Source: Planctomycetota bacterium
Lineage (GTDB): Bacteria > Planctomycetota > UBA1135 > JAKEFM01
Assembly (NCBI GenBank): GCA_022616055.1
Contig: JAKEFM010000086.1
Coordinates: 1 to 64,000, forward strand
Length of the DNA stretch: 64,000 bases
Reading direction: 5' to 3'
This document shows, one piece after another, positions 48,508-56,263 of this stretch; the first letter of the stretch is position 1, and each line of letters starts with the position of its first letter. A program made the translations under genes and the position numbers. The notes below the pieces were generated by a model. That model was not told the DNA's origin. It worked only from the letters and a program-made list of their open reading frames with translations, and searched no databases.

Positions 48508-49508
48508 ATCCGGCCGAGCTCGAGAGCCTCGAGCGCGAGATCGACGCGCTCCGGGGAAAGGTCGACGCCCTGCGCGCCGAGGTGGGCCGGGTCTTTCTCG
48601 GGCACGAGGACCTCGTCGAGCAGGCGATCCTCGCCCTCCTCGCCGGCGGCCACTGTCTGCTCGAGGGGGTGCCGGGCCTCGGCAAGACGCTCCTCGTGCG
48701 GGCCCTGGCGCGGGCGCTCGAACTCCGGTACGCGCGCATCCAGTTCACCCCCGACCTCATGCCGGCCGACATCACCGGCACGAACCTCCTCGTCGGGGAC
48801 GAGCGGGGGAACCGGGGCTTCCGGTTCCAGGAAGGACCCGTCTTCGCCAACGTCGTCCTCGCCGACGAGATCAACCGGGCCACGCCGAAGACGCAGGCCG
48901 CCCTCCTCGAGGCGATGCAGGAGTCCGCGGTGACCGTCGCCGGCACGCGCCATCCCCTCGAGGAGCCCTTCCTCGTCTTCGCGACGCAGAATCCGATCGA
49001 GATGGAGGGGACCTTCCCCCTCCCCGAGGCCCAGCTCGACCGCTTCCTCCTGAAGCTCCGGATCGCCCCCCCCACGGTCGACCACCTCGTCCGCATCCTC
49101 GACGCCACGACGGGAGGGGATCCCGCCTCGGTCGAGCCGGTCCTCGGGCGGACCGACATCCTGAGGCTCCGGCAGCTCGTCCGGGAGGTCCCCGTCGCGG
49201 AGCACCTGAAGCGCTTCGCGGCCCTCGCGGTGACCCTCTCCTCCCCCTCCACGCCCGAGGCGCCGGAGCCGGTGCGGAAGTACCTGCGATTCGGGTCGAG
49301 TCCGCGAGGGGCCCAGGCGATGGTCCTCTGCGCGAAGGCCCGGGGCCTCCTCCGCCGCCGGTACCACGCGAGCTTCGAGGACCTGAAGCAGCTCGCCGTC
49401 CCCGCCCTCCGCCATCGGCTCATCCTCAACTTCGAGGCGGAGGCGGAGGGGATCGATCCGGACCGGATCGTGGACGCCGTCCTCGAGGCGGCCGGCGCCC
49501 GGGCCTAG
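48504..49508 (+). CDS. MoxR-type AAA+ ATPase
   Basis: GHCLLEGVPGLGKTLLVRALA, RIQFTPDLMPADITG, VLADEINRATPKTQAALLEAMQE, FATQNPIEMEGTFPLPEAQLDRF. Confidence 0.95.
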   Translation: MNPAELESLEREIDALRGKVDALRAEVGRVFLGHEDLVEQAILALLAGGHCLLEGVPGLGKTLLVRALARALELRYARIQFTPDLMPADITGTNLLVGDERGNRGFRFQEGPVFANVVLADEINRATPKTQAALLEAMQESAVTVAGTRHPLEEPFLVFATQNPIEMEGTFPLPEAQLDRFLLKLRIAPPTVDHLVRILDATTGGDPASVEPVLGRTDILRLRQLVREVPVAEHLKRFAALAVTLSSPSTPEAPEPVRKYLRFGSSPRGAQAMVLCAKARGLLRRRYHASFEDLKQLAVPALRHRLILNFEAEAEGIDPDRIVDAVLEAAGARA

Positions 49509-49509
49509 G

Positions 49510-49815
49510 TAGAAGTACGGAGGCCCTGGGAGCGGGTCCCCTCGAACCCCACCCCCACCAGGGGACGGAACCCCTGGTAAACCCTTTATGTTTAGCCCGT
49601 TAGGGGCTACTAGAAAAATGCTTGCTAAACCGCCCTTCGAGCCACGGATATAGTGACCGAGCGTGAATAAAGGTTTAGGGTCTGGGTCTTCTTTCCTTCA
49701 TTAGGCTTACTTTTTCTTGGAACCTTCCATCACACCCACATTTCCCATCACCTCTGATTCCAGATCCTAAACCCTTTTGAACCGGATGGGCCGGACGCGG
49801 ACGTCCGGCCCTTTT
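49510..49815 (+). ncRNA. Putative structured non-coding RNA (AT-richer island)
   Basis: Composition break in very GC-rich DNA; hairpins 49558-49577 and 49593-49609; 14-bp helix 49672-49685/49760-49773; ends in intrinsic terminator 49788-49815. 5' end not determined. Confidence 0.55.
49788..49815 (+). terminator. Intrinsic terminator T1
   Basis: GGGCCGGACG-CGGA-CGTCCGGCCC followed by TTTT(CGTTT). Confidence 0.9.
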
Positions 49816-49824
49816 CGTTTCTCC

Positions 49825-49847
49825 CGCGGGGCGGCCCGCGTGTTTTT
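49825..49847 (+). terminator. Intrinsic terminator T2 (tandem)
   Basis: CGCGGG-GCGG-CCCGCG followed by TGTTTTT. Confidence 0.75.
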
Positions 49848-49877
49848 CCCCCCCACTACAATCCGCCCCCTCGCCGG

Positions 49878-50738
49878 ATGGACTACCTCGCCGCCCTCGT
49901 CCAGAACCGCCCCGTCCTCGGAGACCTGGACGAGAACCTGACCCGTCACGAGGAGTCGGCGCGGAAGGCGATCGGGAAAGGAGCGCAGCTGGTCGTCTTC
50001 CCGGAGCTCTCGCTGACCGGCTACCACCTGCGCGACCTCGTGCCGGACGTCGCGCTACGCGCGGGGGACCGGAGGCTCTCGGGGCTCGCGCGGCTCTCGC
50101 GACGGGCCTCGCTCGCGGTCGGCGCCGTGGAGGAATCCGCGGACCACCGGTTCTTCAATTCCGCCTTCTTCTTCGAGGGAGGCGCCCTCCTCGCCGTCCA
50201 CCGCAAGGTCTACCTCCCCGACTACGGGATGTTCGAGGAGGGGCGGCACTTCGCCCCGGGCGACCGCTTCGAGCCGGTGCGCTCGAGGCTCGGCACGCTC
50301 GGCATCCTCGTGTGCGAGGACCTATGGCATCTCTCCTCCTCCTACCTCCACTTCCTCCGGGGGGCCGACGCGATCCTCTGCATGGCGGCCTCCCCCGGGC
50401 GGGGCGTCGCGGGGACGGAGGGGGAGGTCGCCACGGCCCGCGTCTGGAACGCGCTGCTCGAGGCGCAGGCGCTCGCCTTCACCGTCCATTCCCTCTTCTG
50501 CAACCGGACCGGCTTCGAGGACGGGGCCTACTTCTGGGGAGGCTCGAAGGTCCTCTCCCCGTTCGGGAGGGTCCTCGCCCAGGCGGGCGACGCCGAGGAG
50601 ATCGTGCTCGCCCGGATCGAGGACGGGGCGCTCCGGCGGAGCCGCACGCTGACCCCGCTGAGGAGGGACGAGAAGGCTCTCCTCACGCTCCGCGAGATCG
50701 ATCGGGCGATCCGGACCGAACGTGACGCTCCCCCTTGA
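49878..50738 (+). CDS. Nitrilase-superfamily amidohydrolase, likely glutaminase partner of NadE
   Basis: Glu-Lys-Cys triad contexts FPELSLTGYHLRDLV, HRKVYLPDYGMFEE, LVCEDLWH. Confidence 0.88.
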   Translation: MDYLAALVQNRPVLGDLDENLTRHEESARKAIGKGAQLVVFPELSLTGYHLRDLVPDVALRAGDRRLSGLARLSRRASLAVGAVEESADHRFFNSAFFFEGGALLAVHRKVYLPDYGMFEEGRHFAPGDRFEPVRSRLGTLGILVCEDLWHLSSSYLHFLRGADAILCMAASPGRGVAGTEGEVATARVWNALLEAQALAFTVHSLFCNRTGFEDGAYFWGGSKVLSPFGRVLAQAGDAEEIVLARIEDGALRRSRTLTPLRRDEKALLTLREIDRAIRTERDAPP

Positions 50739-51540
50739 CGCGCCTCTCGCGGCCCGCCTCCTCGCGGGGTTTCTCCGCGAGGAGGCGGGGAAGTTCGGCT
50801 TCCGGCGCGCCGTCCTCGGACTGTCCGGCGGGGTGGACTCCGCGGTCACCGCCGCGCTCGCCGCGCGCGCCTTCGGCGGCCGCAATGTCCTCGCGGCTCT
50901 CCTCCCCTACCGGCACTCGGCCCCGGAGAGCGTGCGCCTCGCCCGCGGCCTCGCCCGGCAGCTGCGCCTGCGGACGGTCGAGATCGACATCACCCCGATG
51001 GCGGACGGCTATCTCGCCCGCGCCCGCGGCGCGAGCCGGGTCCGTCGGGGCAACGTCCTCGCGCGCTGCCGGATGGCGGTCCTCTACGACCTCTCGGCCG
51101 CGTGGCGGAGCCTGGTCCTCGGGACGAGCGACAAGTCGGAGTGGCTCCTCGGCTACACGACCCTCCACGGCGACTGCGCGAGCGCCCTCAACCCGATCGG
51201 CGACCTCTACAAGACCCAGGTCCTCGCGCTCGGCGCGCACCTCGGCGTCCCCGAGGAGATCCTCCGCCGGCCGCCGAGTCCCGACCTCTGGCCCGGACAG
51301 AGCGCGGAGAAGGAGCTCGGCTTCTCCTACGCCCGGGTCGACGCCCTCCTCAACGCCCTCGTCGACCGGCGCTACTCGGAGGCGGAGTGCGTCGCGGAGG
51401 GTTTCCCCCGGGCGCTCGTCCGGGGCGTCGCCGCGCGGATCCGCGACTCCCAGTTCAAGCGCCGGCCTCCCCTGATCCCGAAGGTCTCCAACCGGACCCT
51501 CCACTGGGACTTCCGGTACCTGCGCGACTGGGGGCGGTAG
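50722..51540 (+). CDS. nadE: NAD+ synthase
   Basis: LGLSGGVDSAVTAALAARA, GTSDKSEWLLGYTTLHGD, LNPIGDLYKTQV, PPSPDLWPGQSAEKELG; GTG start. Confidence 0.92.
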   Translation: MTLPLDAPLAARLLAGFLREEAGKFGFRRAVLGLSGGVDSAVTAALAARAFGGRNVLAALLPYRHSAPESVRLARGLARQLRLRTVEIDITPMADGYLARARGASRVRRGNVLARCRMAVLYDLSAAWRSLVLGTSDKSEWLLGYTTLHGDCASALNPIGDLYKTQVLALGAHLGVPEEILRRPPSPDLWPGQSAEKELGFSYARVDALLNALVDRRYSEAECVAEGFPRALVRGVAARIRDSQFKRRPPLIPKVSNRTLHWDFRYLRDWGR

Positions 51541-55531: not shown

Positions 55532-56263
55532 TCACTCGACGTAGTGGCGCTCCACCACGCCCACGAGGGCCTTCTCCAGAGACTCGTGCGCCCGCGCGAG
55601 TCTCGATTTCACGGTCCCCATCGAGCAGCGGAGGACCTCGGAAATCTGCTCGTAGGAGAGGCCCTCGATGTGCCGCAAGACCACGATGGACCGGAGTTTC
55701 GGGCTCAGGTGGTCGATCGCCCCCTGGACCTCGGCCTCCAGTTCCCTCCCGTCCGCCCAGCGCTCGGGGCCCCGGCCCCGGTCGCTTTCCTCTTCCAGCT
55801 TTTCCATCGTCACAGGCTCCGGGGCGGACGGGAAACGCCGCGCGACTCCTCGCCTCCGGAGGTCGATCGCGGCATTGATAGCGATCCGGTAGACCCAGGA
55901 GGAGAACTTCGAGCGGAACCGGAAGTCCCGAATCTTCCGGAAGAGAATCCCGAAGGTCTCCTGAGAAGCATCCAAGGCATCCACAGAGTTTCCCGTTATC
56001 CGATAGGCGACGTTGTAAACCCTTTCCTTATAAAGGTTGTAGAGCTCCTCGAAGGCCTTCCTGTACCTCTCGGGGCCAGATCGCTGGCAGGCCTCGACGA
56101 GCTCCCGGTCCGGGTCCATCCGTTCACCAGGCTCTCGGATACGACGAGGGCTGATCGCCCGAGGTTCCCCCCCCGTCGCGGGGGGGCGAGGGACCGCCGT
56201 CGGGCCAGGGAAGGACGGCTCGCCCGCCGACCCGATGGTGCCCCCGTCCGGGATGGTGCTCAT
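55532..56263 (-). CDS. ECF RNA polymerase sigma factor
   Basis: AFEELYNLYKERVYNVAYRITGN..DALDASQETFGILFRKI, SKFSSWVYRIAINAAIDLRR, LRSIVVLRHIEGLSYEQISEVLRCSMGTVKSRLARA; start may be 56119. Confidence 0.92.
   Translation of the reverse strand: MSTIPDGGTIGSAGEPSFPGPTAVPRPPATGGEPRAISPRRIREPGERMDPDRELVEACQRSGPERYRKAFEELYNLYKERVYNVAYRITGNSVDALDASQETFGILFRKIRDFRFRSKFSSWVYRIAINAAIDLRRRGVARRFPSAPEPVTMEKLEEESDRGRGPERWADGRELEAEVQGAIDHLSPKLRSIVVLRHIEGLSYEQISEVLRCSMGTVKSRLARAHESLEKALVGVVERHYVE

Follow-up and report, generated by a model that had tools for sequence, protein, structure and literature searches.

The window analyzed here, a stretch of 64,000 nt, derives from contig C341 of the 5.8-Mb draft genome of a Planctomycetota bacterium and carries an AT-rich island between a moxR gene and the genes of an NAD synthetase. 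An earlier note had proposed this island as an undescribed structured non-coding RNA. We therefore asked what the island is: a gene for a small RNA, the untranslated end of the upstream transcript, a leader of the downstream genes, or a remnant of inserted DNA.

Locus and composition of the spacer

The genes flanking the island and the spacer itself are as follows.

48597–49508, + strand: upstream gene, MoxR-type AAA ATPase (AAA_3); the scanned interval ends with the stop codon, and the gene begins further upstream than 48597
49509–49877, + strand: AT-rich non-coding spacer of 369 nt (~370) between moxR and the gene for the NadE amidase subunit
49878–50738, + strand: carbon-nitrogen hydrolase (CN_hydrolase), glutamine amidase subunit of a split NAD synthetase
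50722–51540, + strand: NAD synthase subunit (NAD_synthase, PF02540)

Thus, moxR, the spacer and the split glutamine-dependent NAD synthetase genes are all located on the + strand. The NAD synthetase at 49878–51540 is encoded by separate amidase and synthase genes with overlapping reading frames.

Over 49550–49849 the GC content of the spacer is 0.47–0.55 vs. 0.73 window-wide, which agrees with the earlier statement that its composition is sharply different from the GC-rich surroundings. For a wider comparison we used 1.15 Mb of the same genome, sampled by regions. Six 250-nt islands with GC below 0.56 were detected in this sample, the spacer island being the joint lowest (0.49), and two of the remaining five consist of coding sequence that contains PD40/TolB-like repeats. 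The spacer also has the lowest GC among the 53 stretches in 329 kb that lack the coding periodicity of the genome. The sequence at 49685–49787 is the most G-poor stretch in the 1.15-Mb sample, with 78-nt windows that contain at most 7 G (minimum 5); only one other sampled stretch reaches 7 G per 78 nt, and it is purine-rich and read on the other strand. The segment 49690–49770 is composed of 35% C, 37% T and 7% G and contains 21 YC dimers.

All six frames of the spacer are interrupted by stops, and their comparison with Pfam gave a single chance-level match (E = 0.3). The earlier view that no credible ORF is present is thereby upheld, and a hidden or decayed protein in the island was rejected.

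Several other regions of low GC were observed in this genome, which is otherwise 73% GC. AT-rich coding islands with PD40/TolB-type repeats in their translations lie at L226 306–801 and L238 1–343. In the window, a low-GC segment at 55860–56109 resembles by eye, on the − strand, the 5′ end of a gene for an ECF-type sigma factor and was possibly acquired recently. A cluster of dnaA, dnaN, ParA/Soj-like and ParB-like genes (recognized by eye; L115 4850–15000, corresponding to C341 about 88850–99000) has several low-GC spacers; located about 40 kb from the island, it is probably the region of the replication origin.

Folding of the island

Elements identified within the spacer are listed below.

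49557–49578, + strand: hairpin ACCAGGGG-ACGGAA-CCCCTGGT (arms 49557–49564 and 49571–49578), 5′ half
49593–49609, + strand: hairpin TAGCCC-GTTAG-GGGCTA, same 5′ half
49626–49654, + strand: weak sigma-70-like promoter candidate, TAAACC-17-TATAGT (8/12)
49672–49686, + strand: 5′ arm of a 15-bp closing helix
49685–49787, + strand: G-poor, C/U-rich stretch that includes the loop of the helix
49759–49773, + strand: 3′ arm of the 15-bp closing helix
49788–49811, + strand: strong intrinsic terminator GGGCCGGACG-CGGA-CGTCCGGCCC followed by TTTTCGTTT, with a 10-bp stem and a T-rich tail
49825–49840, + strand: second terminator-like hairpin, weaker than the first, CGCGGG-GCGG-CCCGCG, then TGTTTTTCCC
49857–49862, + strand: TACAAT, 3′ of both terminators; judged by eye, it may serve the NAD synthetase genes as a −10 box

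Both of the clean hairpins reported earlier are present, but the 5′ half around them does not fold better than its dinucleotide shuffles (z −0.9 for 49550–49660 and z −0.2 for 49512–49660). The long helix reported with them was recovered in the 3′ half, where 15 contiguous pairs between 49672–49686 and 49759–49773 enclose an open, C/U-rich loop of ~70 nt. None of 500 shuffles of 49661–49787 equaled this helix by score, while shuffles of the whole island equaled or surpassed it in 12/500 cases by length and 9/500 by score (about 2%). Helix and terminator together (49661–49817) gave a z-score of −3.9, with 0/200 shuffles folding as well, and the fold of 49672–49817 reached z −5.9; the boundaries of both segments were picked after the fold had been seen, and these z-scores flatter the structure. 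For the helix core without the terminator (49661–49787) the value was only −1.3. A 10-nt direct repeat, TAAACCCTTT, occurs at 49578–49587 and 49768–49777, and a repeat of this kind was reached in 24/500 shuffles.

Terminators and promoter candidates

Two terminators were found on the + strand of the island vs. 0.7 expected from shuffles, and by scan the main one (49788–49811) works on the + strand only. The island thus carries an intrinsic terminator on the predicted transcribed strand, as is required of a trans-acting sRNA. Of the terminators that the earlier note had called strong, this description fits 49788–49811, whereas the hairpin at 49825–49840 is weaker.

The promoter candidate matches at only 8/12 positions and was picked out after the fact, and a stricter 9-of-12 scan found no promoter in the island. 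Its candidate −10 box, TATAGT (49649–49654), places the predicted start near 49661, about 11 nt 5′ of the helix.

Comparison with known RNA families and elements

The search against Rfam 15 gave nothing at gathering score in the island, and the sub-threshold matches were of chance type; the best, CRISPR-DR29, scored 23.8 of 39 bits on the terminator hairpin. Among the families named in the earlier note, tmRNA (RF00023), RNase P RNA (RF00010) and SRP RNA (RF00169) had no match in the island, and the genome has its copies elsewhere (C177:14490–14842, C185:40644–41010, and C50:17973–18072, respectively), in line with the earlier failure to match these three RNAs by eye. 6S RNA (RF00013) matched neither the island at E up to 5 nor any other part of the genome. 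Like 6S RNA, which is of similar length, the island has an open region closed off by a long stem, yet in the island this region is a large loop, whereas in 6S RNA it is a central bubble within a rod.

An integron attC site was rejected, as neither GTTRRRY nor RYYYAAC boxes occur on either strand. We also rejected the motif AUCACCUC in the loop as an anti-Shine-Dalgarno mimic (P about 0.12 vs. shuffles); this test used the usual bacterial 16S tail, as the 16S end of the genome itself was not found by pattern. No paper found by literature search describes such an element in its title or opening abstract.

Homologues and gene order in relatives

The earlier note had proposed a search for homologues in related genomes. 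As relatives we used 153 genomes of the order, all of them from outside the genus and family of the window. DNA search of this set revealed no homologue of the island, only pieces of 18–44 nt, several of them on the terminator, and a single-sequence covariance model of 49660–49782 had no match across the order. The class comprised no genome beyond the 154 of the order, and the class-level covariance-model search added nothing. As a single-sequence model detects only moderately diverged relatives and all genomes searched lie outside the family, the absence of homologues is weak evidence either way. Homologues with covarying pairs, the mark of a conserved structured ncRNA family, were thus not found in the genomes searched.

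No second copy of the island was found in the same genome, and no DNA relative in plasmids or phages; a repeated or mobile element was rejected on these grounds. In viral contigs we detected 26 exact 16-mer matches, about the estimated chance level for such a collection, and none of these loci fits the covariance model. A viral link was therefore rejected as well.

The gene order HAD-moxR-NAD synthetase is conserved across the order. In ten relatives (loci L003, L004, L005, L010, L012, L016, L019, L023, L025, and L027) moxR and the amidase gene share a strand, moxR lying directly 5′ at a distance of about 0–45 nt vs. 369 nt in the window, and in most of them the HAD hydrolase gene is also located upstream, as in the window. 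The spacer is thus a lineage-specific gain, that is, added material and not a standard intergenic gap.

Interpretation of the island

Our preferred but tentative reading, to which we assign a little less than an even chance, is that the 3′ half of the island encodes a lineage-specific orphan sRNA of ~155 nt on the + strand. Several results point in this direction: the combined fold of helix and terminator and the core helix exceed all the shuffles of their segments, the terminator works on this strand only, the −10 candidate lies just before the helix, and the loop, the most G-poor stretch of the sample, is found in a non-coding spacer absent in relatives. Such an RNA would start a few bases 3′ of the weak −10-like box and end at the intrinsic terminator at 49788–49811. 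Its helix and terminator would protect the RNA ends, as in ordinary trans-acting sRNAs, while the unstructured pyrimidine loop could pair with purine-rich mRNA stretches, e.g., ribosome-binding sites. The same terminators would keep transcription of moxR from reaching the NAD synthetase genes. Terminator-bounded trans-acting sRNAs as a class share with the island the intergenic position, a length of about 150 nt, the intrinsic terminator, the stable helix and the open pyrimidine-rich loop, but the island has no homologue in described sRNA families, its promoter is weak and its transcription only predicted. Against the sRNA reading also stand the missing covariation support, as no homologue was found in the order, the post hoc choice of the promoter, the modest excess of the helix over whole-island shuffles and of its fold once the terminator is removed, and a loop that does not match the usual 16S 3′ tail above chance.

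It is rather improbable, but deserves weighing, that the island is merely the 3′ UTR and termination zone of a HAD-moxR transcript. In this reading the C-rich, G-poor part would load Rho in the manner of a rut segment, and both hairpins would be intrinsic terminators that part moxR from a separately promoted NAD synthetase operon. Every element lies on the strand of moxR, two terminator-like hairpins follow in tandem, and the TACAAT box is found just 5′ of the next start codon. Known Rho sites are C-rich, G-poor and abundant in YC dimers, and the make-up of 49690–49770, 3′ of a stop codon, resembles them. In contrast to rut segments, the stretch in the island lies partly within a strong helix, and the strong intrinsic terminators 3′ of it leave a Rho site unneeded. 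In addition, it occurs essentially once in 1.15 Mb, so it is no routine termination device of this genome, and the relatives cope with almost no gap between moxR and nadE. We consider it unlikely that the island instead stems from foreign DNA (a small mobile element, a gene fragment or an assembly join) that was inserted and is now decaying, with no present function. Its lineage-specific insertion within a conserved gene order, its foreign-looking GC content and the TAAACCCTTT repeat would suit such an origin; yet the repeat is part of the helix arms, clear terminal inverted repeats are absent, and the terminator is intact, in the right place and on the right strand. The single copy, the lack of plasmid or phage matches and the lack of a protein remnant in six frames likewise speak against a relic.

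The position directly 5′ of the NAD synthetase genes, with the terminators ending 37 nt before the start codon, suggests a riboswitch or attenuator that acts in cis as their leader and senses NAD or a precursor, but we regard this as highly improbable. No Rfam riboswitch, NAD riboswitches included, was detected even at E up to 5, the relatives have no leader at this place, a separate −10-like box lies 3′ of the terminators, and we see neither an upstream segment competing for the arms of the main terminator nor an antiterminator.

Returning to the orphan sRNA reading, the proposal of an undescribed structured ncRNA holds in that a real non-coding island of extreme composition is present, which ends in terminators and matches no Rfam family at gathering score, but it does not extend to the 5′ hairpins, which are at chance level. 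The label of a new RNA needs covarying homologues or a transcript and, with no homologue in the genomes searched, is unsupported. That the island yields a real, expressed RNA of a previously undescribed family, confined to a family-level Planctomycetota-type lineage and acting through its large pyrimidine loop, appears doubtful to us.

At present the island is an unusual spacer without homologues, and a marked spot for future transcriptomes or closer genomes. It may be a small RNA restricted to its own lineage. Should it prove to be expressed, it would add a further lineage-specific sRNA to a group in which such RNAs seem to have received little study, and would exemplify the gain of a non-coding gene within a conserved gene order.
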